Source: Blautia argi (GTDB lineage Bacteria > Bacillota > Clostridia > Lachnospirales > Lachnospiraceae). From it: a stretch of DNA of 64,000 nucleotides. Made by a program: the position numbers and the translations under genes. Positions 33,056 to 48,730 of this stretch are shown here, in pieces. Where the stretch lies: the NCBI RefSeq assembly GCF_003287895.1, contig NZ_CP030280.1:2917501-2981500 (forward strand). Direction: 5' to 3'. Position 1 is the first letter of the stretch; every line of letters starts with the position of its first letter. The notes below the pieces were generated by a model that was given only the letters and a program-made list of their open reading frames with translations, did no database searches and was not told the DNA's origin.

Positions 33056-33502
33056 ATGAGCAAAATTGATGAAGTCAGAAAAGCTATGGTCGCTGCCATG
33101 AAAGCAGGTGATAAAGAACGAAAAGAATCCCTGTCTATGCTGCTTTCCGCATTGAAAAATAAAGCCATTGACAAACGGGAGGATTTAACAGAAGCAGAAG
33201 AAAACGAGGTTGTCTTAAAGGAAATTAAGCAAACAAAAGAAACTCTGGAACTGACACCTGCAGACAGAACCGATATGATAGAAGAATGTACCAAACGAAT
33301 CGCTGTATATGAAGAATTTGCTCCCAAGATGTTAAATGAAGAGGAAATCAAAGAGGTGATTCAGGGCGTACTGGCAGAACTGGAAATCACAGCTCCAACC
33401 GGAAAAGAAAAAGGAAAAATCATGAAAGTGCTGATGCCTAAGGTGAAAGGCATTGCGGACGGCAAGCTGGTGAATCAGGTGCTGGCTTCTATGATGGAGT
33501 AA
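33056..33502 (+). CDS. GatB/YqeY domain protein
   Basis: 148 residues matching the free-standing YqeY family: KAMVAAMKAGDKERKESLSML near the N-terminus, then ELTPADRTDMIEEC and a C-terminal GKEKGKIMKVLMPKVKG helix bundle as in the tail of GatB. The tail domain of GatB contacts tRNA in the amidotransferase; the isolated protein has no firmly established role. Monocistronic, convergent with the glycosidase operon. Confidence 0.93.
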   Translation: MSKIDEVRKAMVAAMKAGDKERKESLSMLLSALKNKAIDKREDLTEAEENEVVLKEIKQTKETLELTPADRTDMIEECTKRIAVYEEFAPKMLNEEEIKEVIQGVLAELEITAPTGKEKGKIMKVLMPKVKGIADGKLVNQVLASMME

Positions 33503-33581: not shown

Positions 33582-34601
33582 TCAGAACTTTTCTATTTTC
33601 TCTGCCGCATATTGAAGAATTTTAGCTGCATCGCTGGTGTCTGACGTTCCGTTACGATTTACATCAGCTGCTTTTTCTTCCTCTTCTGTAAACTCCTGAT
33701 ATTCTGCGGCTGCCTTGAGAACCATTGCGGAATCTGAGCTGTCTATAACTCCATTTGCGTCCACATCACCTAAAAGGCGCGCCTTTAGAATCTCTTCCAC
33801 CAATGTTTTTACTGCTTCCCCTACTTCCGATGTGCTGGATTCTTCTCTGTCATAAACGGCCTTGGCTATATCAACTGCTTCCTGCAATCCGGCAATACTG
33901 TCTTCTACATAGCAATCTGCATTTTTCAGAATTTCCTCCGCTTTATCCAAAGCATTTTTCAGCTCAGACTTTTCTGCCTTTCTGACAAGCCCTGCCATAG
34001 CCTCTGCCAGACGCTGATAAGACCGATTAATCGCCTCATCTGATGCCTGCTGATCTTGGGCAGTTTTCTTTGCAGCCTCCAGGGCGTTTTCCAACTCTTT
34101 CACACTGGAAGAAGTGTACTGCTCTTTATTCTTCAGCAATTCTTCTGCCTTCTGAATAAGGATATCCAGCCTTGTGTTTTCCCCTTTGAGCATAAGGGCA
34201 GTGACTGCGTCCATCAGCCTTCTGGTTGCCGCATTTACGGTTTCCTGGTCTGCGCTCTCCTCTTGCAGCACCTTTTCAGCTTCTGTCAGAGCAGCCTTCA
34301 CCGCGTCCACACTTTCCGTTGTGTACTGTGATAAAGCTTCCGTATCCGCAAGGATTGCCTTTGCACCTTCAACAGCTGCCTGCAGGCCTATACGCTGCAC
34401 TTCGCCTTCCAGCAGATTACATGCTGTGAGCAGTTCTAAAAATGCCTGATCTATTTCTTCCTGTGCGGCTTCCTGGTTTTCCAACAAAGCTCTTGCAATG
34501 TCCAGCGCTTCCTCTACCCTTTTCCAGCTTTCCTCTGTATAGCAATTATTTTCCTTCTGCTCCTGTTCCAGCTTTTCTGCCATCTGCACCGCCAGTTTTA
34601 G
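33582..34601 (-). repeat. Duplicated FIVAR-dockerin arm, copy in the GH30 gene
   Basis: Encodes four FIVAR repeats plus dockerin that align without large gaps to the C-terminal arm of the GH43 protein (37693-38712). Shared stretches include LAVQMAEKLE, CYTEESW, LDILIQKAEELL and MAGLVRKAEKSELKNALDKA. Confidence 0.85.
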
Positions 34602-37600
34602 TCCGGTACAATCTGCTGTATCAGAAGGATTATCTTCGCCTTCCAGTTCCTGAAGCACCTTCTCGATTTCTGTGCAGGCTGTATCAATATCCTCCTGGCT
34701 GGTACTTCCTTTATAGAGAAACTCTCTTGCTGCATCTGTCAGGGTGTCCAATGCCTCCAGGGCGTTCTCTTCATATTGACTTCTGTCAAGATCTGCCACC
34801 TTTGCCAGCTGTTCCTTCAGTTGCTGCGTATCAAAAATCCTCTGCACTCTTATATAGGACAGTACCGGATCCGGTCCTTTGTCCGGTGCAACTGTAAACG
34901 TCACTTCCCCGTCAGCATCACAGGTAAACTCATAGGTTTCCTCACTCCATGGATTTCCGTCCTTCCAGGTGTTTGCTGCTCCCAGCTCCTGTGTGGTTTC
35001 TCCCATGGTCACAGATACCTTCATAGGTCTGTCCTGATTCCACCATTCTTTAAATCCCATATTAATTCTGTAATTTCCTGCTTCCAGAGGAATCTTATAC
35101 TCAATACTCTGTCCTGCTTTTGCATACCAGCCGGTATCATAATTATCCTCTTTATCTCCGTTATATGCTCCGTACTCTTCGAGGTAGCCCCAGCTTCCCT
35201 CCTGATATTTCTGATCCGGCGCCTTGTTTTTTAAATCTGCGTAAGATTCTGTTTCCTCATAAACCGGAGAATCCGGGCTGTTGCAGTCTATAAAATACTG
35301 TACTGTTTCCGGCACAACCTGCACCCTTACAGATGCCCTTACCGAAGTGCCTTCTATGCTTCCTGTCAGAGTTGTACTGTGTGTAAAGTCTTCCCCTGCC
35401 AAATCCCATTCTACCTCTTTTTCAATGCGATTTCCCATATTGGTAACCGTATAAACACGGTCAGGCAATTTGGGCTGTACACCGTCTACTGTATAGAGCG
35501 CTGAAATTGGTTCCACACTTTCAATTCTCTCTTCTAATTCTCCTGTAACAATTCTTCCGCTGCTGATTTCTACCAGCTTATCTCCCTGTCCTTCTGATTT
35601 TGAAATGGTTAGCGTATGCGTGCCTTCTCCCAGATTTCCTGTATTATAAAGCAACGTATTTCCTGTTTTCTCTTCTGCCTCTAAAGAAAGCTGCTGACAT
35701 GCTCCATTGTCTACGGAAACATCTACCATTGCTCCCTCCGGCGCTTTACTGCCGTAAATCATTGCCTGATTTCCTTCAAAGGTAAAAGTTACTGCCCCGT
35801 TTTCTTCTGTTGTATATTTTCCGTTTCCGAAGTCTTCCGCAGATTCTCCCCAGGAACCTTCATAAGTAAATTTGTTCACATCAGATACCCAATCCACCTC
35901 CGGTGTGGCGGTATCTGCTTCTACAATTTCACTGTAATTTTCCACATCGCATACAGCGCTTCCGTCATTCGCCCGGATAACATAAGTAGAAACAGAATTC
36001 TGAGGAAGTGTCACGTCCAGTACTTTATCTGTGACGTCCTGTGTTTCTACCAGTTCACAACTCTCCGTATCTGAGGTTCGATAAACTTCCGCGGTTTCTG
36101 CTCCCGGAAGCAGACCAAGATCTAAAGTCGTCTGTCTTTCCCCGTCAAAGTTCTGTGCAACAAGAACCAGTTCATCACCGGAAGGCGAAACTGCAGCACA
36201 CATGTTTTCGTCGCCCACATCAACCATGGTATATCCGGCTTTTAAATATTTACTATACTGCATCATGGTGTAGAATTGCTTTGTAACTGCCCAGTATCCT
36301 TCTCCCGGCACACCGTCCTTTCTGTTTCCGTTTTCATCTACCAGATTGGTGTGATAATCCGGCACCGGCTGTCCGTCTTTTTCAAAGACTGTATGAAGCA
36401 GTCCCCAGTTGGAATTTGTCTGCAGACACTCATATTCACTATCTGCAATCAACCACGCAATCCATGCCGTAGGCTTCATATATTTCAAATCCGCCATAAT
36501 CCCCTCACTCTGAGAGCGTGTATTTGCTGCTTCCATGGATTCATGACAACCCTCGTAATGACTTCCGCCTCCTTTTGTCACTTCTGACATCCAAAGCCCT
36601 TTATCATAGCTTTCTGCCAGATTGTGAAGTTGCCGTCTTTCTGCATTATTTCCGCTGTAGGTATGCGCGCTTATGGTTTCCATATTTTCCTTCACATCTT
36701 CGTCCAGACGGTCAAAGGATTGTATCGCATTCCAAAGAGCGGTTTCATCGGTTCCGGTAAGCTTTACATCTCCCAGGCTGCCTCCAAACTCTTCCGCGTT
36801 AAGGGCATTCTGCATTTCCCGGTAAGCCCATGACTGCAGTTCTCCCGTATTGAAAATACAGCCTTCCTGCTTTGTACTTCCTGCCTGCCAGTAATTTGTG
36901 TCCGGCTCATTTAATGGCTCGATATAAGATACTCCAACACCAAATTTATTCTTCAAATCTTCGTCGATCCATTTCGCAGCCCGTGCCATATACAGTGCAA
37001 AATCATCGTAACAGTCCTCTTTCAGATTATTCAAATCATCGCTGTAGCCCCCGGTAGAGGTACCGGACTTTGTCATATAATAAGGCGGCGAATTGGAAAA
37101 CACCTTATTAATGATATCATTTTTCTGACCTGTTTCCTGTGCATAATCATATCGATACTGATTGGCAGCTTCCAGTATCCAAAGCTGTCCTGCATCGCTC
37201 ATTTCTTCTGTACTTTTGCTATAGAAAGCTTCTGCATCAAATGCCTGACTGCCGTCCTTTGTTCCTGTCATGTCCTCTGTCCAACCCGGTACGATTCCTT
37301 CTATCCTCTTTATGGAGGTATCCTCCTTGTCCCCTCCACCCACATTATAGCGCACAATATTCAGGTTCAGATATTCCGGTGAAAATGCCAATTCTGCGAT
37401 CTCCTCTCTGTCGGGTCTGCCATTTCCGTTCCAGTCTGCATCTCCCCAGGAACCAATCACATTTCCCCACCAGCAAAGAGATGTTCCCCAGCCTTCCAGA
37501 GTCTGATAATGAATGCCCGGATTTACAGAAATTTCTCCATAGGAAACATCGTTACCCTCAGCCATGACGGGAACCGCCATGGCTGAAAGCATTGCAGAAC

Positions 37601-37661
37601 TGCCCATAACAAGTACAGACACACCTGCAGTTATCTTTTTATACACTTTTCTTTTTTTCAT
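33582..37661 (-). CDS. Secreted GH30 glycosidase with CBM-like, malectin-like, FIVAR and dockerin modules (probable endo-beta-1,6-galactanase)
   Basis: 1359 residues. Signal peptide 1-34. GH30 catalytic barrel with flanking beta-sandwich ~40-570: YQTLEGWGTSLCWWG at the start, acid/base Glu252 in SYIEPLNEPD, nucleophile Glu360 in WMSEVTKGGG. Next come a carbohydrate-binding-like sandwich (~575-705), a Big_4-like domain (~715-790), a malectin-like domain (~790-940), five helical FIVAR repeats (~945-1290) and a dockerin (1296-1359) with two calcium loops, DVDANGVIDSSD and DVNRNGTSDTSD. The start resembles GH30 subfamily 5, which cuts beta-1,6-galactan of arabinogalactan. Subfamily and substrate are inference. 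Follows the GH43 gene on the same strand; expected to dock on the cohesin-like wall protein. Confidence 0.88.
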   Translation of the reverse strand: MKKRKVYKKITAGVSVLVMGSSAMLSAMAVPVMAEGNDVSYGEISVNPGIHYQTLEGWGTSLCWWGNVIGSWGDADWNGNGRPDREEIAELAFSPEYLNLNIVRYNVGGGDKEDTSIKRIEGIVPGWTEDMTGTKDGSQAFDAEAFYSKSTEEMSDAGQLWILEAANQYRYDYAQETGQKNDIINKVFSNSPPYYMTKSGTSTGGYSDDLNNLKEDCYDDFALYMARAAKWIDEDLKNKFGVGVSYIEPLNEPDTNYWQAGSTKQEGCIFNTGELQSWAYREMQNALNAEEFGGSLGDVKLTGTDETALWNAIQSFDRLDEDVKENMETISAHTYSGNNAERRQLHNLAESYDKGLWMSEVTKGGGSHYEGCHESMEAANTRSQSEGIMADLKYMKPTAWIAWLIADSEYECLQTNSNWGLLHTVFEKDGQPVPDYHTNLVDENGNRKDGVPGEGYWAVTKQFYTMMQYSKYLKAGYTMVDVGDENMCAAVSPSGDELVLVAQNFDGERQTTLDLGLLPGAETAEVYRTSDTESCELVETQDVTDKVLDVTLPQNSVSTYVIRANDGSAVCDVENYSEIVEADTATPEVDWVSDVNKFTYEGSWGESAEDFGNGKYTTEENGAVTFTFEGNQAMIYGSKAPEGAMVDVSVDNGACQQLSLEAEEKTGNTLLYNTGNLGEGTHTLTISKSEGQGDKLVEISSGRIVTGELEERIESVEPISALYTVDGVQPKLPDRVYTVTNMGNRIEKEVEWDLAGEDFTHSTTLTGSIEGTSVRASVRVQVVPETVQYFIDCNSPDSPVYEETESYADLKNKAPDQKYQEGSWGYLEEYGAYNGDKEDNYDTGWYAKAGQSIEYKIPLEAGNYRINMGFKEWWNQDRPMKVSVTMGETTQELGAANTWKDGNPWSEETYEFTCDADGEVTFTVAPDKGPDPVLSYIRVQRIFDTQQLKEQLAKVADLDRSQYEENALEALDTLTDAAREFLYKGSTSQEDIDTACTEIEKVLQELEGEDNPSDTADCTGLKLAVQMAEKLEQEQKENNCYTEESWKRVEEALDIARALLENQEAAQEEIDQAFLELLTACNLLEGEVQRIGLQAAVEGAKAILADTEALSQYTTESVDAVKAALTEAEKVLQEESADQETVNAATRRLMDAVTALMLKGENTRLDILIQKAEELLKNKEQYTSSSVKELENALEAAKKTAQDQQASDEAINRSYQRLAEAMAGLVRKAEKSELKNALDKAEEILKNADCYVEDSIAGLQEAVDIAKAVYDREESSTSEVGEAVKTLVEEILKARLLGDVDANGVIDSSDSAMVLKAAAEYQEFTEEEEKAADVNRNGTSDTSDAAKILQYAAEKIEKF

Positions 37662-37692
37662 CTTCTTTTCCTCTTACCAGCTTCTGATTTTT

Positions 37693-38712
37693 CTAAAACT
37701 TTCCTATTTTTTCTGCTGCATATTTTAAAATTTCAGAAGCGTCGCTGCTGTCTGAAGCACCGTCACGGTTTACATCTGCCGCTTTTTTCTCTTCTTCTGT
37801 CAGTGCCTCATATTCTGCGGCAGCTTTTAATATTCTTGCAGAGTCTGCGCTGTCCACAACACCGTTAAAGTCCACATCGCCTAATAATCTTGCCTTTAAA
37901 ATCTCGTTGACCAGATTTTTTACTGCTTCTCCTACCTCTGACGTGCTGGCATCTTCTTTGTCATAAACCGTCTGTGCCGCATTAACGGCTTCCTGCAGAT
38001 TCGCAATGGTATCTTCTACATAACTATCCGCATTTTCCAGAATCTCTTTTGCCTTGTCCAATGCATTTTTCAATTCTGATTTCTCTGCCTTACGCACCAG
38101 TCCTGCCATGGCCTGTGCCAGATTGTTATACGCCTGTTTTTGTTCTTCTTCTGTAGCCTGGCTGTTTGCCGCTGTATCTTTTGCCTCCTGTAAAGCCGCT
38201 TCCAGTTTTTCTACGCTGGGGGCTGTATACTGATCTTTCTTTTCAAGCAGTTCTTCTGCCTTCTGAATTAAAATATCCAGTCTGCTGTCTTCTTTCTGCA
38301 CCAGAAGTCTTGTCACTGCGTCCATAAGTTTTCCTGCTGCTGCATTTACTGTTTCCTGGTTCGCACTTTCTTCTGCAAATATCTTTTCTGCCTCTGCAAG
38401 AGCTGCTTTTACTGCTTCCACACTTTCCTGTGTATACTGGGATAAAGCTTCTTCATTGTCCAGAATCGCTTTTGCTCCGTCTATAGCCGCCTTTAGTCCC
38501 ACTTTCTGCACGCCATTTTCCAAAAGGTTGCAGGCTGTAATCAAATCCAAAAATGCTTTATCTATTTCTTCCTGAGAAGCTTTCTCATTTTTCAGCACTT
38601 CTCTGGCTTTGTCCAGCGTCTTCTGTACTTCTGCCCAGGACTCTTCTGTATAACAGTGATTTTCTTTTTGCTCTGCTTCCAGCTTTTCTGCCATCTGCAC
38701 CGCCAGGTCCAA
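37693..38712 (-). repeat. Duplicated FIVAR-dockerin arm, copy in the GH43 gene
   Basis: Second copy of the ~1.02-kb arm found at 33582-34601, in the same orientation and same position in its gene. Protein similarity is high throughout and the dockerin is nearly the same, so an intragenomic duplication or conversion is likely. Confidence 0.85.
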
Positions 38713-41313
38713 GCTTGTCCTGTTCTCGTCCTCTGATGGCTTCTCTGTTTCTTCCCCTGTGATTCCAATCCAGCTCAATACCGGATCAGAGCTTCCTCTC
38801 TTACTTACAGTGACTGTTACCATTCCCGTTTCTGTCATTTCAAAGTTCTGATTAATCTGTACGTCCTTGTCACTTCCCCGCAAAGTAAAATCCTTCTCTG
38901 TCAGGACTGTTTCGCCGCACTTAACGGTAATCTTCATATCTCTTGTGGCATTCCACCATTCCTGGAAGCCTGTTGACACTGTATAAGTACCCGGATTTAA
39001 CGCAAAGGTATATTCGATATTTTTGCCGCTTGCTGCCCACCAGCCGTTTTCCAGTTCATTGCCGCCAGCGTGTAATCCTATGTCAAAATTATCCGGCGCT
39101 TCTGTTTCTGTAGTTCCTGTATATCCGGCTTTTTCTCCCTGGCTATACTTCTGGTCTGAAACATGGTTGAGCAGATTCTCGCCTAACTGTTCTTTTACTG
39201 TATCAAAATATTGGGATTCCTCTGTACCACAGTCAAAGAAATATTTGGTATCAGGACGGACAATATACATCTGATGTCGGAAGCTGTTTCCTTTTTCCGT
39301 AAGGTTTCCGGTTACTGTTACTGTTCCCATTTTACTCTCGTCATAGGCTTCTACACTCCAGGAAACAGGGGTAAGTTCCTCTCCTGTTCCATAAGAAATT
39401 GTGATTTCCTTAGGAAGCTGCTGCTCAATATCTGCTACAGAAGAAGCGACTGTTGGAAGTTCTGTGATAACCTCAAAGCTTCCTTTGCCTTCCAGGTCCT
39501 CCAGTGTCCAGTTTTCATATCTTCTGAGGGCAATTTTATTGTCCGGCTGAAATTCTACCGGAAGCCATACGTACCTGGATTCACTTAAATCTCCTGCATT
39601 CCATCTGTCACCCATGTAAATGTATTTTCCATTTTCCGCATCGACCGGAAAAACACAGGTACTCTGTGTATCATAAGTTGTCTGACTGCCCTCATCTGTA
39701 CAAGGGTCCCCCATATCGATCCATGGTCCCAGAGGACTGTCTGCTACTGCATATTTTGCCTGATTCGGACTCCAGCCTGTACAGCCGGAAGTAATCATAT
39801 AATACTTATCCTTATACTTGAACATTGCGGGAGCCTCTCTGGAAGATTTGGCAAAGTTTCTTGTAAAGTCTACACCTTCCACGGCTTCTCCCGGTTCAGC
39901 TGAAAGCCCTGTATAATCTTCATTTAATTTTGCCACATACATGGTTTCATTGCCTTCGGAGGAATACATGATATAAGCAGTTCCATCATCATCTTTAAAC
40001 ACATTCATATCTCTGACAGAGCCTTTATTTTCCTCTCCGTCATAACCATAATTATCTCCTGCGTGATGCAGCTTGGAACTTCCCAACAGCTTAAACGGTC
40101 CTGTAGGACTGTCGCTGACCGCAACTCCTGCCTTGGCTTTTCCGTAATCTGCATCACTGTCCGGTGTACGACCGTCTGCGTGGAACCAGATAACATAGTT
40201 ATCATTTTTTTCATTATAGAGCATTTTCGGCCGCTCCATAACCGCATTATTCTTATCCAGGTCTACAAAAATTGCCTCCTTCTCTTCCTGGGACAAATCT
40301 CCATACAACTCTTGGAAATAAGGATCTGTTTCAAACTGTTCCGGGTCTTCCATGGTCTGAAGCACAATTCCCTCATCGTCCCAGTTGTATAAATCAGAAG
40401 AACTATATACATGAATGCCTCCAACCGGACGGTAATCATTGGTCTTGTCCTCTCCAATCCAGTAATATTTTGCTTCTCCTCCTACAGTTAGTTTCTGAAT
40501 CTGACCGCCATGAGCCTGAATCGGATTTCCGTTTGTGTCATACATGGTTTCCCCTGCAACACCTGTAAAGGAACTGTAGGAAGGAATTTCCTTCTGTTCT
40601 TCCTCTACCGCTCTTACCTTAATGTAATTCAAAAGTGGATCCTGCTTACTGTCTGTTCTTCTGGGCGCCTTAATATCTACATTTAGCTCTCCGTCTGTAA
40701 CCTCTACCGTAAAGGTCTTACTCACCCAAGCTCCATAATTCACTGCCACATCTGTAGCTACAGTCTGGTCTTCCAGCAGAATATTCATGGTACGGTTGTC
40801 CCAGTAATGCTTAAACGCCACGGTTACTTCATAGGTATTTGCCTCCAGACCTTCAATGGGTTCTTCCGGTACCTGGAAAGAATACCCCAGAGAACTTTTA
40901 TATTTATCAAACTGTACACTGTCTGACATATAAATAAAACTGTTTCCGATATCTGTAGCATCATCTGCATGCCCCACAGCCTGAGAATATTCCGTCGCAG
41001 GATTGCAGCCCCAATACATTCCGGTTTCTGTATCCTCTCCGTATTCCTGGTCTACCTTGGACTGCAAAAGCCCCATACGCTCGCTTTCCGGATTGGGAAT
41101 CACAGATGAATCTGAAGTTCCACAGTTTACGGTATACAAAACATAATCATTGCCGACTACGGTATCATAATTAAGTTCCGGTTCCGCTACTTCCAAAGCC
41201 TCATCGGAAAACTCTGCTGCTGTTACCGGTACGGTTGGAAACAACGCTGTTGTTCCCATGGCAATTGCTGAAATTCCTGCCATAGTCTTTTTAAAACACT
41301 TTCTTTTTTTCAT
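37693..41313 (-). CDS. Secreted GH43 glycosidase with malectin-like, FIVAR and dockerin modules (probable exo-beta-1,3-galactanase)
   Basis: 1206 residues. Signal peptide 1-32. N-terminal malectin/CBM-like domain ~45-235. GH43 five-blade propeller ~250-640 with DTNGNPIQAHGGQIQKL, ERPKMLYN, RDMNVFKDDDGTAYIMYSSE and SSREAPAMFKYKDKYYMITSG; Glu493 in REAP is the expected acid. NPIQAHGG is characteristic of subfamily 24 exo-beta-1,3-galactanases. A Big_4-like domain (~640-705), second malectin-like domain (~710-865), four FIVAR repeats (~870-1140) and a dockerin (1143-1206, DVDFNGVVDSAD and DVNRDGASDSSD) follow. It should strip the beta-1,3-galactan backbone of arabinogalactan outside the cell. 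ATG follows an AGGAGG site. Upstream neighbour is the cohesin-like protein. Confidence 0.9.
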   Translation of the reverse strand: MKKRKCFKKTMAGISAIAMGTTALFPTVPVTAAEFSDEALEVAEPELNYDTVVGNDYVLYTVNCGTSDSSVIPNPESERMGLLQSKVDQEYGEDTETGMYWGCNPATEYSQAVGHADDATDIGNSFIYMSDSVQFDKYKSSLGYSFQVPEEPIEGLEANTYEVTVAFKHYWDNRTMNILLEDQTVATDVAVNYGAWVSKTFTVEVTDGELNVDIKAPRRTDSKQDPLLNYIKVRAVEEEQKEIPSYSSFTGVAGETMYDTNGNPIQAHGGQIQKLTVGGEAKYYWIGEDKTNDYRPVGGIHVYSSSDLYNWDDEGIVLQTMEDPEQFETDPYFQELYGDLSQEEKEAIFVDLDKNNAVMERPKMLYNEKNDNYVIWFHADGRTPDSDADYGKAKAGVAVSDSPTGPFKLLGSSKLHHAGDNYGYDGEENKGSVRDMNVFKDDDGTAYIMYSSEGNETMYVAKLNEDYTGLSAEPGEAVEGVDFTRNFAKSSREAPAMFKYKDKYYMITSGCTGWSPNQAKYAVADSPLGPWIDMGDPCTDEGSQTTYDTQSTCVFPVDAENGKYIYMGDRWNAGDLSESRYVWLPVEFQPDNKIALRRYENWTLEDLEGKGSFEVITELPTVASSVADIEQQLPKEITISYGTGEELTPVSWSVEAYDESKMGTVTVTGNLTEKGNSFRHQMYIVRPDTKYFFDCGTEESQYFDTVKEQLGENLLNHVSDQKYSQGEKAGYTGTTETEAPDNFDIGLHAGGNELENGWWAASGKNIEYTFALNPGTYTVSTGFQEWWNATRDMKITVKCGETVLTEKDFTLRGSDKDVQINQNFEMTETGMVTVTVSKRGSSDPVLSWIGITGEETEKPSEDENRTSLDLAVQMAEKLEAEQKENHCYTEESWAEVQKTLDKAREVLKNEKASQEEIDKAFLDLITACNLLENGVQKVGLKAAIDGAKAILDNEEALSQYTQESVEAVKAALAEAEKIFAEESANQETVNAAAGKLMDAVTRLLVQKEDSRLDILIQKAEELLEKKDQYTAPSVEKLEAALQEAKDTAANSQATEEEQKQAYNNLAQAMAGLVRKAEKSELKNALDKAKEILENADSYVEDTIANLQEAVNAAQTVYDKEDASTSEVGEAVKNLVNEILKARLLGDVDFNGVVDSADSARILKAAAEYEALTEEEKKAADVNRDGASDSSDASEILKYAAEKIGKF

Positions 41314-41340
41314 GGGTATCCTCCTTTTTATAAGATAAAA

Positions 41341-42069
41341 TTATTTTTTCGTTTTTTTCCGCACTGCCAGTGTTCCGCCCAGAACTGCCGCTGCCCCGAA
41401 ACAGCCTGCCACATACAGCTCTGTTCTGTTTTCATCCCCGGTTTTTACCTTACCCGGTTTTTTCCCGGAAGGACTCTTATTTGCTTTTCCGGAATCTTTC
41501 CCTGTATCTTTATCATTTTCTGTATTCTCAGATTCCTCTTTTGAACCGTTTTCCTCCTTCATGCCCTCTCCTACGACATAAACTGCTTCCCGGACTTCAC
41601 ACTCTACCTCACCGCTGTCGCCCGCAAGCTTTTCAGCCTGAATCTCAAATTTAATTTCTTCCCCTTGTTTTATCCCTTCTTTTAGCTGAAACTGCATATC
41701 CAGAAGACTGCCGCCGGTGGGAATATCCTGCGCAGAAGCGAAAACCTCCACAAGTTCTCCCTCCTCTTTATTTCCGGACAAACAATCATTAATTTCTGCC
41801 ATGGCATCACCTAATACGGTTCCTGCTTTTGACTCCTTTAACTGTGCCTTTTCGTCTTCATACAAGATTCTCAGCTTCCCATTGGTAATTGCCTTTCCGT
41901 TTGCCAACATACACTGGATATCCACACAATTTGTTTCCTTGCTGAAATTTCCTGCTTTCAGAGCAATTTCTGCCTTTTCTGACGCCCACACTGGGATAGC
42001 TGTCTGCAAAAGAAAAACCGATGCAAAAATCGCGGTACATGCCCTTTTAAATTGTTCCTTTTTTCTCAT
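41341..42069 (-). CDS. Cell-wall-anchored cohesin-like protein
   Basis: 242 residues from the ATG at 42069 (AAAGGAGAG site; an in-frame GTG at 42093 is worse). Signal peptide ~1-29 (FASVFLLQTAIPVWA). Residues ~30-165 form one beta-rich domain with cohesin-like features: ITNGKLRILYEDEKAQL, then AGTVLGDAMAEIND, VEVFASAQDI and GSLLDMQFQLKEG. A Lys/Ser/Glu/Gly linker leads to VKTGDE, a variant LPXTG-type sorting motif, a hydrophobic segment (YVAGCFGAAAVLGGTLAV) and RKKTKK tail. It is encoded 27 nt upstream of the two dockerin enzymes and so is the natural anchor for them. Cohesin identity is by pattern and context; it is divergent. Confidence 0.7.
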   Translation of the reverse strand: MRKKEQFKRACTAIFASVFLLQTAIPVWASEKAEIALKAGNFSKETNCVDIQCMLANGKAITNGKLRILYEDEKAQLKESKAGTVLGDAMAEINDCLSGNKEEGELVEVFASAQDIPTGGSLLDMQFQLKEGIKQGEEIKFEIQAEKLAGDSGEVECEVREAVYVVGEGMKEENGSKEESENTENDKDTGKDSGKANKSPSGKKPGKVKTGDENRTELYVAGCFGAAAVLGGTLAVRKKTKK

Positions 42070-42229: not shown

Positions 42230-42288
42230 AAAAAAATCTGCTGAAAGAGATGAAAAAAATACAAATTTTCATTCTTTCAACAGATTTT
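42230..42288 (-). terminator. Terminator after the YesM kinase gene of the arabinogalactan locus
   Basis: AAATCTGTTGAAAGA pairs with TCTTTCAGCAGATTT, followed by TTTT on the minus strand. It separates the regulator genes from the cohesin-enzyme genes; the promoter of the latter should lie in 42070-42229, where I could not fix a clear -35/-10 pair. Confidence 0.8.
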
Positions 42289-43989
42289 TTATTCCTCCAG
42301 AGGAATCAGCAGCGTAATGGTGGTTCCTCTATTTTCTTCACTTTCTATCTGGATTCCATATTTTTCCCCATAAATCAGCCTTAGCCTGTCATCTACATTA
42401 TTAATGCCAATGCCGCTGAAATGCTCTTTTTTAGAATCCTTGTCCATAAGACCTGCCAGCCTGTCCTGCTTCATACCAACTCCGTCATCTGCTACCTGAA
42501 TCTGCAGATTTTTGCCGGTTTTGCGTACCAGAATCTGTATATTCCCCTGTCTTTCACAGGGAAACGCGTGGAAAAACGCATTTTCTACAAAAGGCTGTAA
42601 AAGCATTTTGGGAATCTTATATTCCTCACACCCAAAAGTAACGAAATACTCTACCTGCACCTTATCCCCATACCGGGTATTATTAATCAAAACATAGTTT
42701 TTCAGATTCTCAATTTCCTGCTCCACGGTAATATATTCATCTGTATTACTGATGGTATTTCTGAGCAGTGCAATAAACGCATCTATGGTCTTTACTGATT
42801 TTTCTGTTTCCCCCTGGAATATCAGCCACTTAATGCTTGCCAGAGTATTGTAGATATAGTGGGGATTAATCTGCATCTGAAGAGCGGATATCTCTGCCTT
42901 TCTCTTTTCCTTTTGTATGGCCATAAGCTCTTCGATATACCGGTTCAGGTCATCTATCATACTGTTATAAGTAATCTCCAACTCTTTCACTTCCCAGGTG
43001 CCGCCCAGTTTCATATGCTCGTCAAACCTGACCTTTTTGGCATTGGACATCTGCTTAATCACCTTTGAAAGAGGGCTTGTCGTCTGTTTTACCAGAATCA
43101 CAATCACCACTGCAGCGGTCAGCATGATTCCCAGACACACAATCCAAAGCTGGGGAACATCGTATAAATCCCCTAATGCTTTTTCATTGTTAATAATTCC
43201 ATAAGCTTCAAGCTGATAATAGGGAAGCTCTTTTTTCAAAACCGTATGCATGGGAGAATCCGTTTCCTCCAGTTTTGCATTCAGCTTTTCCTTTTCTGAA
43301 GAGGAGATAATAATCCCCTGTTTATTTACAAGATAAAACTCCGCGTTTTCAGAGGTAAAATATTCATAATAGCGGGAAAGCTCTTCTTCCTTCATACTTA
43401 CCAGGGTAACCCCATACGCCTCCTTATTACCAGGGGACTTTAAGGCTCTTACCATCATAATGGTAGGACTTTTCTTTGTCGTAGAAGTATAGCCCTGCTC
43501 CAAAAACACATAGGAAACACTTTCCGGTTTTTCCATAGCCGCTTTTACAGCTTTTGAAGCCAGAATCTCCTCAACAGGTATTGTAATCCTTTCTGCTTTG
43601 CTTACATAGCTTTTTCCCTCTTTGCTTAATGCCAGAACACTGAAATTGTTCTTTTCAGAGGGAATCGCCCGATCCATATCCTCTTTTGCCTTATATGCGA
43701 TCTGAAATTCCAAACTTGGATTCTCAATCTGATTCTGCAGGTACATTTTCAGATACCAACTGGAATTTATAGCATCTGTCATTTTCATCAGATCCTCGTG
43801 AAAGCCGTTCAACTCATTTTCAATTCTCTGAAACACCTGCTCCTGGGACTTACCGTAGGTATCTACAAAAATTTTTTCTGAAACATTGATAATAATTGCC
43901 GTAACCAGCAAAATAGCAATAAAGATACCGGACAAAACCGTAACCAGGATTCTTACAACCATGCTGTCAAAATGAAGACTTCTCCTCAT
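42289..43989 (-). CDS. YesM-like sensor histidine kinase
   Basis: 566 residues from the ATG at 43989, with AAAGGTGG upstream. TM1 ~14-38, large extracellular sensor ~40-285 (Cache-like), TM2 ~290-310, HAMP, then LQMQINPHYIYNTLASIKWL (phospho-His) and a HATPase with LLQPFVENAFFHAF, DDGVGM and GIGINNVDDRL. Placed between its response regulator and the cohesin/GH43/GH30 genes, it likely senses arabinogalactan fragments. Confidence 0.93.
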   Translation of the reverse strand: MRRSLHFDSMVVRILVTVLSGIFIAILLVTAIIINVSEKIFVDTYGKSQEQVFQRIENELNGFHEDLMKMTDAINSSWYLKMYLQNQIENPSLEFQIAYKAKEDMDRAIPSEKNNFSVLALSKEGKSYVSKAERITIPVEEILASKAVKAAMEKPESVSYVFLEQGYTSTTKKSPTIMMVRALKSPGNKEAYGVTLVSMKEEELSRYYEYFTSENAEFYLVNKQGIIISSSEKEKLNAKLEETDSPMHTVLKKELPYYQLEAYGIINNEKALGDLYDVPQLWIVCLGIMLTAAVVIVILVKQTTSPLSKVIKQMSNAKKVRFDEHMKLGGTWEVKELEITYNSMIDDLNRYIEELMAIQKEKRKAEISALQMQINPHYIYNTLASIKWLIFQGETEKSVKTIDAFIALLRNTISNTDEYITVEQEIENLKNYVLINNTRYGDKVQVEYFVTFGCEEYKIPKMLLQPFVENAFFHAFPCERQGNIQILVRKTGKNLQIQVADDGVGMKQDRLAGLMDKDSKKEHFSGIGINNVDDRLRLIYGEKYGIQIESEENRGTTITLLIPLEE

Positions 43990-44004
43990 ATCCGCTTCCA
44001 CCTT

Positions 44005-45513
44005 TCACGTCTGTAAACACTTGGCGTTTTGCCTGTAACTTTTTTTAAACACTCTGCAAAAATAACTGTGGTCAGAATATCCCACCATGGCGCTTACCTG
44101 CGCTATGGAATACTCCTTTCGTCCCAGGTAGCTGCATGCCTTTTCAATCCTTATCCGGTTCAGATATTCGCTGAACCCCTCTCCCATGTGGGAATTAAAA
44201 TATGCAGACAGGTAAGAATAATTAAATCCGAAGGTTTCTGCCAGACTTTGGAGATCCATTTCTTCTTTATAATGTATCTGAATATATTCCAGAATCTCCT
44301 TTAGGTATACGTCCTGTCCCTCGCCGCGCAGAAGAATATCCTTAAGACGTACCGTCAATTCTTCCAGAACCTCCCGGAATTCCTCATAATATACTGACTT
44401 TTCTATTTTCTCAAAATATTCCTTTCTCAGTTCCTCCAATTCTGCTGTTTGTTCTTCTGTACTGCTGAGAATATTGTATAAAAGATTTTTTGCTTGATTT
44501 TTCAGTTTAAACTCCGGTACACGGCAGCTTCCGGCAGAAAGCAGATATTTGTGAAACAGCTTTATGGCGTCTTCATATTTATGCTCTCCCAAATACTCCA
44601 CAAACCTGCGAAAATCAAACTTTCCGCAGGTCTCTCTCTTGTCCCATTCTTGCTGTATGTACAGATGAATCCCCTCATGATAAAAGCTTTCCTCTTCTAA
44701 AATACCGGATTTTTCAAAATCCTCTTTTAAACTCTCAAGATCTGTTCTTTTGGGTCCCAATATACCAAAGCACTGCTCATAAAGCACACTGAGCTGCTCC
44801 ATCATGGTTTCCATACACTCCAGCATTCGTTTTTCATCTTTTACACTGTAATTAAAAACAATACACAGAGTTTCCTGATTCAGTACAAATTTCAGATATG
44901 TACCCCAGCCTTGTTCCTTTAACATCTCCTCTGCTTTTTCATACAAGACGGGCGACAAATCTGTCCCCCGCTTATCCCGTCTGCGCAAAGGAAGCACAAA
45001 CAGTCGAAAACAACTGCCTGTAAAGACCTCCTGAAACTCCCACTGCTTTATTTTCTCATCATTTCCCGTAAAATACTGTTCCAGTCTGGTATCCAGACTG
45101 GAAAACTCCTTTTTCTTCAACTGAAGTCCCGGAATCTTCTGTGCAGCCTTAGACACCATGTTCAAAAGCATTTCCGGATTCAGTGTAGGCTTCAGTACAT
45201 AATCCGCAGCGCCGTTTAAAAGCGCCTGCCTTACATAATCAAACCGATCATAACTGCTCAAAACCAGAATCTGTATATCAGGATATTTCTTTCGTACAAT
45301 CTTGATAAAATCTAATCCGTCCATAACCGGCATGGCAATATCACAAAGGATAATGTCCGGCTTAAGTTCTTCCAGCCTGTCAAGGGCTTCCTTTCCATTA
45401 GAAGCCTCTCCTACCACTTCATATCCTTCCTGCTCCCAGTTCATCATGTAACGAATTCCCTGACGCATGATAAATTCATCGTCAATAATCATAATTCTGC
45501 AATTCTCAGTCAT
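44005..45513 (-). CDS. YesN-like response regulator with AraC output domain
   Basis: 502 residues. Receiver at ~1-120 with IMIIDDEFIMRQG, phosphoacceptor in DIILCDIAMPVMDG (~residue 57) and the conserved Lys in YVLKPTLNPEM. A long middle region is followed by two AraC helix-turn-helix units (~400-500: LQSLAETFGFNYSYLSAYFN; VSAMVGYSDHSYFCRVFKK). Immediately upstream of the kinase gene. Probable activator of the arabinogalactan locus. Confidence 0.93.
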   Translation of the reverse strand: MTENCRIMIIDDEFIMRQGIRYMMNWEQEGYEVVGEASNGKEALDRLEELKPDIILCDIAMPVMDGLDFIKIVRKKYPDIQILVLSSYDRFDYVRQALLNGAADYVLKPTLNPEMLLNMVSKAAQKIPGLQLKKKEFSSLDTRLEQYFTGNDEKIKQWEFQEVFTGSCFRLFVLPLRRRDKRGTDLSPVLYEKAEEMLKEQGWGTYLKFVLNQETLCIVFNYSVKDEKRMLECMETMMEQLSVLYEQCFGILGPKRTDLESLKEDFEKSGILEEESFYHEGIHLYIQQEWDKRETCGKFDFRRFVEYLGEHKYEDAIKLFHKYLLSAGSCRVPEFKLKNQAKNLLYNILSSTEEQTAELEELRKEYFEKIEKSVYYEEFREVLEELTVRLKDILLRGEGQDVYLKEILEYIQIHYKEEMDLQSLAETFGFNYSYLSAYFNSHMGEGFSEYLNRIRIEKACSYLGRKEYSIAQVSAMVGYSDHSYFCRVFKKSYRQNAKCLQT

Positions 45514-45594: not shown

Positions 45595-46440
45595 TCAGCC
45601 TTTTACAGAGCCGGTCATACCTGCTACGAACTGTTTCTGCATGACAAAGAAAAGAATGGCTGTAGGCAATGTTGCAAGAACAACTGCGGTCATCATCATA
45701 CCGTAGTCAGGTGTGTAAGAAGAACCCATTGCAGAAATTACCAACGGCAGTGTTCTTTTTTCCTCTGACTGCAAGGCAATCAACGGCCACAGATAATTGT
45801 TCCAACTTGTCATAAAAGTTACCACAATCGCAGCCGCATAAGTGGATTTCATGGTAGGCATATAAATTCTTGTGAAAATTTTAAATTCTCCAAGTCCGTC
45901 AATTCTGGAAGCCTCGATTAATTCCTTTGGAAAGGTCTTTGTATTCTGACGGAAAAAGAAAATCAAAAATGCAGTTGCCACTGCAATAATAACGACAGAA
46001 CCGGAGGTGTTCAGTCCGATAAGCTTCAGCACAGGAATGTCATTAAACTTTCCGAATAAACGGAACAGAGGCACCATAAGCGCTGCAAAAGGAACCATCA
46101 TGGACAGCAGCACAATATTAAATACCCGATCTCTTGCTTTGCTTTTATACACCTCGAAGGCATATCCTGCTGCTGAGGAAACAACCATTGCCAGCGTTGT
46201 TGTCACTATCGCAATTACAAGAGAATTTTTAAACGCCTGAAAATACTGTAAATCAGATTCCATTAAGTGATTGAAATTTTCCAGAAAATAGGTTCCCGGA
46301 AGCAATGTTCCTTTTGTTACATCTACGGATTTATTTGTTGCTGCAATTACCATCCAGAAAAACGGAAATACAGAAATCACAGATAAAATTGTCAAAATAA
46401 TATATTGAAGCCCATTCATGGCTTTTGACTTCTTACTCAT
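45595..46440 (-). CDS. Carbohydrate ABC transporter permease (MalG type)
   Basis: 281 residues, six membrane helices, EAA loop at ~residue 180 (ELIEASRIDGLGEFKIFTRIYMPTM). Second permease of the CUT1 importer in the arabinogalactan locus; ATG overlaps the preceding permease stop by 4 nt. Predicted cargo is a galacto- or arabinogalacto-oligosaccharide, by context only. Confidence 0.95.
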   Translation of the reverse strand: MSKKSKAMNGLQYIILTILSVISVFPFFWMVIAATNKSVDVTKGTLLPGTYFLENFNHLMESDLQYFQAFKNSLVIAIVTTTLAMVVSSAAGYAFEVYKSKARDRVFNIVLLSMMVPFAALMVPLFRLFGKFNDIPVLKLIGLNTSGSVVIIAVATAFLIFFFRQNTKTFPKELIEASRIDGLGEFKIFTRIYMPTMKSTYAAAIVVTFMTSWNNYLWPLIALQSEEKRTLPLVISAMGSSYTPDYGMMMTAVVLATLPTAILFFVMQKQFVAGMTGSVKG

Positions 46441-47316
46441 TCCTTGTCACCTACTTTCAACTGAATAAAGGATAATACTACAATCAGAACTACAATTACA
46501 AAGGATACAGCCGCTGCATATCCAAAGTTCGGCTGATACTTAAACAGCAGGTTATAAATATACTGTGAAATGGTAATCGTAGTATTGGCAGGTCCTCCCT
46601 GTGTAATATTCATGGGTTCGTCGAAAAGCTGCAACGTACCAATGGTGGAGTTAATGGTCGTAAAAAGAATAATCGGCTTTAACAGCGGCAGTGTCATATA
46701 ACGGAATTTTTGAAAACCGGTTGCCCCGTCAATGGACGCCGCTTCATAGATAGAATCATCGATACTCTGCAAGCCTGACAAATAGAAAATCATATTGTAT
46801 CCGGTCCATCTCCAGGTAATGGCTATGATAATCAGAAGCCTTGCAAAACCTGTACTGGTAAGCCAGTTAATAGGCTGAGAAATCAGATGCAGGTTCATCA
46901 AAATACCATTGACAAAACCATCGTTTGCAAACAAACTTTTAAAGATAATGGAGTATGCAACCAGTGACGTTACACATGGAAGAAAAATTGCTGTACGAAA
47001 CAGACCTCTGCATTTCAGCTTTTTATTATTCAGCATAGAAGAAATGGCCAGAGCCAGTAAAATCATAACCGGAACCTGTACAAGCAAAAACAATACGGTA
47101 TTAAACAACGCCTTTTGAAAAGTGGAATCCGTCAGCAGTCTTTGATAGTTTGCCACTCCTCCAAATTTAAGATTATTGGCAACACCTGTCTGAAATGATG
47201 TAAGAAATGCCTGCACCATGGGATAAAACACAAAAGCAACGATCAATATCAGGCTGGGAATCACAAACAGCCAGGCTCTGCCATTTAGTCTTTTCTGTAT
47301 ACTTTTTTTCCTTCAT
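46437..47316 (-). CDS. Carbohydrate ABC transporter permease (MalF type), probable frameshift at the 5' end
   Basis: The clear coding frame begins at 47264 as VIPSLILIVAFVFYPMVQAF and carries the EAA loop SIYEAASIDGATGFQKFRY. The natural start is the ATG at 47316 (GGAGG ten bases upstream), reading MKEKK; that frame is one base out of register. If the seven-A run (plus-strand T run 47303-47309) had eight bases, the protein would start MKEKKSIQKRLNGRAWLFVIP, a normal N-terminus for this family of ~293 residues. First permease of the CUT1 importer. Confidence 0.88.
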
Positions 47317-47406: not shown

Positions 47407-48730
47407 TTACTGTGCTACAGCGGCTTCTGCCTGTGCCTGATAATCCTTTAATGTGCTGTCAACGTCTGCACCATTTACAATTGCCTGTACGGCTTCTGTC
47501 ATTAAATCTTCAATCGCATATGTGTTCAAACCATAGTTTACAGACGGAACCTTGCTTGTCCAGTCAGCGAAATCACCGAAGATTTCCTGTCCGCCAAAGA
47601 ATTCACTTGGTTTAGAGTAGTTTTCTGCTTCAGAAGCTGCATTTAAGGTACTTACCAGTGTAATATCTTCTGCCAATGTGTTCATCAGATCTACATTTCC
47701 TGCAAAGGTATCCTTTAAGAAGTCTTTGGCAAGATCTTCATTTCCTACATTTTTCAGTACATACCAGCCACCGCCGCCCGATGGAGGAAGCATTTACAGA
47801 GTCTTTGTTGTTATCCATTCTTGGGAATGGAGCAACTCCCCATTTCCCGCTCTGGTCTTCTGCCTTCTGAATAGAAGGAGCAATCCAGCAGCCTGTCGGT
47901 ACGGTTGCAACCTCTCCGCTGTTAAATGCGCCTACAAACTGATCCCAGTCAAACACCTGTTTGGAAATTCCGGAATCAACCAGTTCCTTATATACTTCAA
48001 TGGCATCTTTCAATCCCTGATTGTTATCAATAGAAACTTTTCCGTCTTCATCTGTGTACCAGGTACCTGCACTCTGCATCATCATACGAATCTGACCGAT
48101 ATCACTCGGATCCAGAGTCAGCATATAAACACCACATTTTTCCTGTACTGCTTTACCGATTTCAATATATTTATCCCAGGTCAGATCCTGCATATCTTCC
48201 TGTGTATATCCTGCCTGTTCGATTAAATCTGTACGGTAAAAGGTTGCTGCCACACCACTGTCAAATGGAACGCCATAGACTGTTCCGTCTACCTGGTTTA
48301 CCGCTGTTTTGTAGCTTGCAAAGTCGTCCTGATTTACAATATCGGATAAATCTGCAAATTCATCAGGATAAGAGGTCAAATAGCCCTGTGCCTTATAGTC
48401 CTCAATCAATACAATATCTGGAAGTCCGTCATAAGAACCTGAGGAAAGACTTGTGTTCAGTTTGGCTACAATATCGTCCTGTGCCATGGTAACCACGTTT
48501 ACTTCCACGTCCGGGTTTTCCTTCTGATACATTTCTTTTGCGTCCTGAGCTGCTTTAATATTAAAAGCTTCGTCCCATGCCCAGATTGTAAGTTCATCTT
48601 TCTTTCCGCTCTCTTCTGTAGCTTCCTTTCCTGCATCGGCTGTCTTCTTTTCCTCTGTACCTCCGCATGCGGTCATTCCAAGTACCATGGATGATGCCAA
48701 TACCAGGGCAAACACTTTCTTTAATTTCAT
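47407..48730 (-). pseudogene. Extracellular sugar-binding lipoprotein, frameshifted
   Basis: N-terminal lipoprotein signal MKLKKVFALVLASSMVLGMTACG with Cys ~22. Family 1 solute-binding features follow (DELTIWAWDEAFNIKAAQDA; VPFDSGVAATFYRTDLI; VPTGCWIAPSIQ). At NASSIG the frame shifts: one G too many in the run at 47777-47779 (plus strand CCC). Deleting it gives SSIGGGGWYVLKNVGNEDLA and a ~440-residue intact protein ending at 47407. Substrate receptor of the importer next to the arabinogalactan enzymes. Confidence 0.9.

Follow-up and report, generated by a model that had tools for sequence, protein, structure and literature searches.

How might a bacterium keep dockerin-bearing enzymes at its surface when it appears to have one cohesin to receive them? 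Blautia and its relatives are gut bacteria, and the question is raised by a locus of Blautia argi within a 64,000-nucleotide (nt) stretch of contig NZ_CP030280.1 (positions 2,917,501 to 2,981,500), referred to here as the window; plain coordinates are positions in this stretch. The locus is composed of three genes on the minus strand. One encodes a wall-anchored protein of 242 residues with a single cohesin, which we call the dock (41341..42069), recognized from its open reading frame (ORF), its homologues, and a structure model with a fold match. The others encode a predicted GH43_24-type exo-β-1,3-galactanase of 1206 residues (37693..41313) and a predicted GH30_5-type endo-β-1,6-galactanase of 1359 residues (33582..37661), both glycoside hydrolases (GH) ending in a FIVAR arm and a dockerin. 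We conclude that the locus very probably forms a dock that displays arabinogalactan-degrading enzymes at the cell surface.

Architecture of the dock and its two enzymes

The dock is composed of a secretion signal, a cohesin domain, a sorting motif, a membrane helix, and a basic tail. The secretion signal (residues 1–29, 41983..42069, minus strand) was identified by eye from a basic start, a hydrophobic helix, and the pattern VWA-S; the predicted model has a helix at residues 2–23, and the signal pattern is kept in homologues. In the structure model, residues 30–168 (41566..41982, minus strand) have the fold of a cohesin β-sandwich, and all 50 PDB entries listed by the fold search are cohesins. 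Of the 19 positions of the domain with the highest conservation, 15 are in strands 3, 5, and 6 and the 5–6 loop, which together make up 32 of the 139 residues (P 2.6e-8; this stretch was picked after the alignment had been viewed). The 8-3-6-5 sheet of the cohesin is the dockerin-binding face in the solved complexes described in part of PMC5429695. The sorting motif VKTGDE (residues 208–213, 41431..41448, minus strand), of which T210, G211, and D212 are present in at least 90% of alignment rows, is followed by a membrane helix predicted at residues 216–241 and a basic tail ending in KKTKK. Such an arrangement marks a sortase-anchored protein, and the genome encodes five sortases; the NCBIfam LPXTG-subfamily match of the dock is below the cut-off (16.3 vs 47 bits).

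The dockerins occupy residues 1142–1206 of the GH43 protein (37696..37890, PF00404 at 39.7 bits) and residues 1295–1359 of the GH30 protein (33585..33779, 37.3 bits), both on the minus strand and above the cut-off of 22.9 bits. Each contains two calcium-loop repeats, seen by eye in the alignment, as in type I dockerins. The dockerins are preceded by FIVAR arms, a label for the PF07554 repeat stretches with no structural result behind the name: residues 857–1141 of the GH43 protein (37891..38745, four stretches) and residues 1010–1294 of the GH30 protein (33780..34634, five stretches), likewise on the minus strand. The C-terminal 350 residues of the two proteins, arm and dockerin together, are 69% identical, and the catalytic heads are unrelated, which suits one receptor common to both enzymes.

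The GH43 head, assigned by Pfam, is nearest to the solved GH43_24 enzymes 6eug, 6euf, 3vsf, and 7bys. All eight of its subsite −1 residues are identical to those of the Phanerochaete chrysosporium exo-β-1,3-galactanase, including the acid Glu208 and the base Gln263, the latter unusual as a base; the residues are those given in part of PMC7939473. The GH30 head, assigned by Pfam to GH30_2, has its best solved match in 24td (GH30_5, E 8e-24), ahead of the GH30_4 entry 3clw (E 3e-11); part of PMC13431644 presents 24td as the first structure of a GH30_5 endo-β-1,6-galactanase. Compared with Sa16Gal30A, whose numbering is used here, seven of nine residues are identical: both catalytic glutamates (Glu217 and Glu320) and the cleft residues Asn216, Gln229, Tyr294, Trp350, and Asp354. 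Trp222 is replaced by Tyr and Pro355 by Ser, and Trp359 is beyond the aligned stretch. On the basis of these residue and structure matches, the heads are predicted to have exo-β-1,3-galactanase and endo-β-1,6-galactanase activity.

The genome of the window is a single contig of 3.30 Mb and 99.96% complete. It contains two Dockerin_1 domains, both in the window and both above the cut-off. A trimmed cohesin profile finds one match in the genome at E up to 1e-5. A search with Pfam PF00963 gives a single weak place at a different locus of the genome (at 20.8 bits, under the cut-off), and neither search found a multi-cohesin scaffoldin. The weak cohesin-like stretch (L003, C1:2152152-2155409) is fused to an ABC transporter ATPase and is located beside an ORF resembling, by eye, an exporter-type permease; this protein is not likely to be a dock. 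The first-pass annotation, made from the letters of the window, had proposed the trio of an anchor and two dockerin enzymes, the cohesin fold and wall-sorting signal of the anchor, the dockerins and the common FIVAR arm, and the GH43_24 and GH30_5 assignments, and all of these stand.

We infer the binding, stoichiometry, surface location, activity, import, and regulation of the system as follows. The dock would be secreted, and a sortase would link its VKTGDE motif to the wall, where one cohesin is presented. The two enzymes would be exported separately and captured via their C-terminal dockerins. A single cohesin should take up one dockerin at a time, so each anchor is expected to hold one enzyme and to work as a display dock; as two dockerins would share one cohesin, the enzymes would compete, and the composition of the surface would follow from their ratio. 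The wall may carry a mixture of the exo-β-1,3- and endo-β-1,6-galactanases on FIVAR arms, which may act as stand-off spacers, with β-1,6 side chains cut in endo fashion and the β-1,3 backbone trimmed in exo fashion beside the importer. The galacto-oligosaccharides released could be taken up by the neighboring ABC system, and expression may be under the control of the kinase and regulator pair next to the trio. Our guess is that the advantage over separate wall anchors is one anchor with exchangeable heads.

Recurrence of the dock in relatives

Eighteen distinct close-family loci were compared: ten from genome records, three from 397 family genomes, four from 20 genus genomes, and the window. 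The cohesin was the only criterion used to collect them, and limiting the set to close-family members was our choice; L044, L045, and L046 coincide with L004, L008, and L012, and each of these places was counted once. A dockerin gene is located beside the cohesin gene in 18 of the 18 loci, and every dockerin passes the Pfam cut-off. Measured from mechanically assigned ORF starts, the gap between the two genes is within 100 nt, or the genes overlap, in 14 loci; it is 199 nt in L004 and 388 nt in L049, and 1118 and 1305 nt in L012 and L048, where a second cohesin gene lies in between. Tandem second cohesin genes are present at L012:8980-9987, L048:9720-10823, and L049:5569-6618, the partner being a GH3-dockerin protein in all three; the second cohesin of L012 lacks a terminal sorting motif.

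The single-dock design is general: anchors of one family occur with many catalytic heads that are unrelated to each other. Leaving out L077 and L078, the dockerin partners are GH43 and GH30 proteins in the window, L004, and L005; GH53 in L011; GH3 in L012, L048, and L049; GH16 in L013; GH43 in L010 and L079; and a GH28-like protein, below the cut-off, in L047. DUF5695 is the partner in L007 and L076 and is located in the ORF preceding the dockerin ORF in L008. The partner is a ricin-lectin protein in L009 and a protein with F5/8 type C and malectin domains in L006. The same trio, which the first-pass annotation had suggested seeking in other Lachnospiraceae, is found twice. In Robinsoniella peoriensis (L004) the order of the window is kept, with the cohesin followed by the GH43-dockerin, the GH30-dockerin, and a regulator; its GH30-dockerin protein shares 67% identity with the window's and has no Pfam call at E up to 0.001. 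In a Lachnospiraceae metagenome-assembled genome (L005) the order is changed to importer, GH2 β-galactosidase, GH30-dockerin, cohesin, regulator, kinase, GH43-dockerin, and GH95. Identity between the window and L005 is about 88% for the permeases, 66% for the GH43 protein, 56% for the kinase, 54% for the regulator, 49% for the GH30 protein, and 36.5% for the cohesin, so the dock changes fastest among the genes compared.

In the genus sample, 4 of 20 genomes contain the cohesin family, and the same four contain dockerins (Fisher P 2e-4, ignoring kinship), with cohesin to dockerin counts of 1:2, 4:4, 2:3, and 1:2. Blautia parvula (NZ_CP084061.1, G777), of the same GTDB genus as the window, has four docks in one genome. 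Its four cohesins differ from each other at 54–70% of positions and the dockerins at 45–54%, a sequence divergence that leaves room for separate specificities and is not evidence of them. Genomes G781 (C1:3940258-3940398) and G782 (C1:989667-989804) each have one dockerin, in ORFs of about 1800 residues distant from family cohesins.

The full-length profile (A2) matches 91 of the 397 family genomes, and most of the matches listed cover the linker and wall anchor only; the trimmed profile (A3) was used after it. Among the A2 matches listed, those to the cohesin domain are, by eye, strong in G000, G179, G018, G346, G102, G140, and G027 and weak in G130 and G049. Dockerins are present in 7 of the 7 genomes with strong matches and also in 122 of the 390 others (129 of 397 in total); most dockerin-bearing Lachnospiraceae genomes are therefore not explained by this cohesin family. 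In the class sample, the trimmed profile matches 20 of 391 genomes, many of them weakly. Distant relatives with a dockerin neighbor are L053, L054 (where the dockerin is weak, E 1.4e-4), L081, L082, and L083; L056 has no cohesin-domain match.

Alternative explanations and known systems

Several results weigh against the locus being a dock with its cargo. The dock's own sequence has no cohesin match in Pfam or NCBIfam, and even the best solved cohesin from a profile search matches it weakly (4ums, E 0.28); phmmer against the PDB returned only 3zja (E 0.79). An attempt to prove the cohesin from sequence alone thus failed, and the structure model decided. Four of ten relatives scanned singly, five of which were chosen because they were already listed as cohesins, fail PF00963: L006 at 22.9 bits, and L011 and both L012 cohesins with no match. 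The remaining six (P0005, P0010, P0016, P0017, P0019, and the L049 cohesin) exceed the cut-off of 24.1 bits, and 9 of 20 members of the dock's alignment match PF00963 at E up to 1, which connects the dock to this family through its close relatives. No dockerin neighbor was found for five distant cohesin-like proteins (L050, L051, L052, L055, and L080). The solute-binding gene of the importer, which occupies two overlapping ORFs (47407..48730, minus strand), appears frameshifted near 47740-47793; both halves match its relative in L005, which is one ORF, and the frameshift may be either a sequencing error or a real loss. Distances between cohesins correlate with those between dockerins (r 0.72 for 18 pairs, one dockerin per locus; 0 of 20000 permutations), but no more strongly than with those of the adjacent 120 arm residues (r 0.78), so much of the correlation could come from linkage alone. 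The partial correlation is still 0.46 (0 of 20000 permutations), and a smaller set of 14 pairs gives r 0.52 (1 of 20000). The co-variation is compatible with matched cohesin–dockerin pairs and no proof of them, as it does not separate binding from linkage.

The first-pass annotation read the locus as a mini-cellulosome, a complex dedicated to arabinogalactan; its parts and likely substrate class hold, whereas the complex is too strong a claim. Cellulosomes combine dockerin-bearing glycoside hydrolases, of which the genome has two, both in the window, with a scaffoldin containing at least two cohesins. The dock has one cohesin, and the genome one trimmed-profile match. We rejected the label for want of a second cohesin, the anatomy predicting a single enzyme per anchor. 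A true multi-enzyme complex, with both galactanases held together by a dockerin that binds two cohesins, by clustering of anchors, or by contacts between FIVAR arms, is unlikely for the same reason, even though the dock has two dockerin enzymes encoded next to it and two similar repeats are kept in both dockerins. Internal symmetry permits other dockerins to bind in two orientations, but those of Clostridium thermocellum that recruit single enzymes to the surface are described with a single binding mode (both in part of PMC5429695).

The enzymes may work mainly free in the medium, or hold the substrate via FIVAR or malectin-like modules, with docking of minor importance. The Pfam scan detects no wall-anchor family in either enzyme itself, and the FIVAR repeats could bind instead of space; yet the first enzyme gene has a dedicated anchor gene 27 nt away, and the anchor–dockerin pairing is kept while catalytic heads change, so we give this explanation little weight. 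It is highly improbable that the cohesin has a different ligand and that the dockerins bind another partner, for example a glycoprotein of the host or the substrate, or one another. The high divergence of the cohesin from that of L005, set against the conserved permeases, would suit such a partner, but the genome has no second family cohesin, its only other place being the sub-threshold one in the ABC transporter, and the pairing recurs in all close loci with matching presence across the genus. A display dock that holds one enzyme at a time remains our preferred explanation.

The GH43 protein has its GH43_24 catalytic domain in common with the exo-β-1,3-galactanase Ct1,3Gal43A from C. thermocellum (PDB 3vsf, E 2e-43), which is dockerin-bearing and cellulosomal and is not known to have a FIVAR arm; a difference is that entry 3vsf is named a ricin B lectin protein. 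FIVAR–dockerin arrangements are present in glycoside hydrolases of Clostridium perfringens. The C. thermocellum proteins OlpA and OlpC have a single cohesin each and an SLH anchor, and SLH repeats define their type. They resemble the predicted dock in working principle, that of a surface cohesin protein. However, they belong to an organism with a full multi-cohesin cellulosome, whereas the dock, not classed with them here, is alone in its genome, has a sortase motif and no SLH match in the Pfam scan, and adjoins its two enzyme genes. Passages of PMC12811415 and PMC5429695 describe OlpA and OlpC as surface proteins with a type I cohesin. The cohesin–dockerin pairs of C. perfringens, described in parts of PMC12997984 and PMC5429695, form between glycoside hydrolases without a classical scaffold; there the cohesins are on the enzymes, whereas the cohesin of the window is on a separate, non-catalytic wall anchor. 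The ScaE-type scaffoldins of Ruminococcus and the mucinolysome of Limousia, in excerpts of PMC11557425 and PMC12997984, combine sortase-anchored cohesin proteins with dockerin enzymes in gut bacteria, but with multi-cohesin scaffoldins and many dockerin proteins instead of one cohesin and two dockerins.

According to parts of these two papers, a genome survey of cellulosomes demanded a protein with two or more cohesins (PMC11557425) and a search for mucinolysomes likewise a multi-cohesin protein (PMC12997984), so genomes with only the single-cohesin class would have fallen outside both. The former notes that Lachnoclostridium sp. MSJ-17 has single-cohesin proteins in addition to a scaffoldin with two cohesins. 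No paper on a dock of Blautia or Robinsoniella was found among titles and abstract openings of the open-access literature. The system described here differs in its lone, non-catalytic dock with a sortase motif, located beside its enzyme genes, with no multi-cohesin scaffoldin found, and reused with many heads. Regarding the substrate, part of PMC12540051 lists Blautia among the taxa enriched by arabinogalactan in at least one donor, and also by arabinose, without involving this locus, and part of PMC5320581 reports no growth of Roseburia/E. rectale strains on type 2 arabinogalactan.

We speculate, tentatively and with less than even confidence, that Lachnospiraceae polysaccharide loci each carry a private, orthogonal cohesin–dockerin pair, with unrelated heads swapped onto a portable FIVAR-dockerin arm, and that the four docks of Blautia parvula work without cross-talk. 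If so, the docks would make up a surface-display system that differs from cellulosomes, occurs in several genera, and has been overlooked by surveys that need at least two cohesins per protein. The display dock, if confirmed, would extend cohesin–dockerin display beyond scaffoldin-bearing organisms, and Blautia and its relatives would place soluble-fiber enzymes on the wall, beside the importer, by a minimal one-dock version. As the pairs are small, adjacent, and diverse, their specificity and surface display are directly testable, and they could yield new orthogonal pairs for protein engineering.

Neighboring genes and distant cohesin-like proteins

The dock, GH43, and GH30 genes form a tight run, with 27 nt between the first two. 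A long hairpin followed by a T run (42231..42290, minus strand) is located directly after the stop codon of the kinase gene and 5′ of the dock gene. It has a folding energy of −25.9 kcal/mol (z −5.79), and 0 of 200 shuffles fold equally well; a consensus-based terminator scan listed 13 sites without it. The hairpin is a possible terminator separating the three-gene unit. On the 3′ side, the next likely gene is on the opposite strand (ORF 33056-33502), and the three genes, bounded in this way, look like a single unit. A promoter scan gave 19 candidates vs a shuffle mean of 20.6, and since this is no excess, we claim no promoter.

Upstream of the trio, on the same strand, Pfam identifies a sensor histidine kinase (42289..44001), an AraC-type response regulator (44005..45513), and two ABC sugar permeases with BPD_transp_1 domains (45595..46440 and 46437..47264), followed by the ABC solute-binding protein with the apparent frameshift.

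Three of the distant cohesin-like proteins (L050:8287-10197, L051:7840-9549, and L052:8514-10133) are anchored proteins of 540–640 residues in which a long N-terminal region precedes a C-terminal cohesin-like stretch, and those of L051 and L052 adjoin an NlpC/P60 gene. In L053 (9271-15275), a subtilase with an internal dockerin is encoded next to a small protein that combines a distant cohesin-like domain with a FIVAR repeat, a pair that may be a protease version of the dock design.

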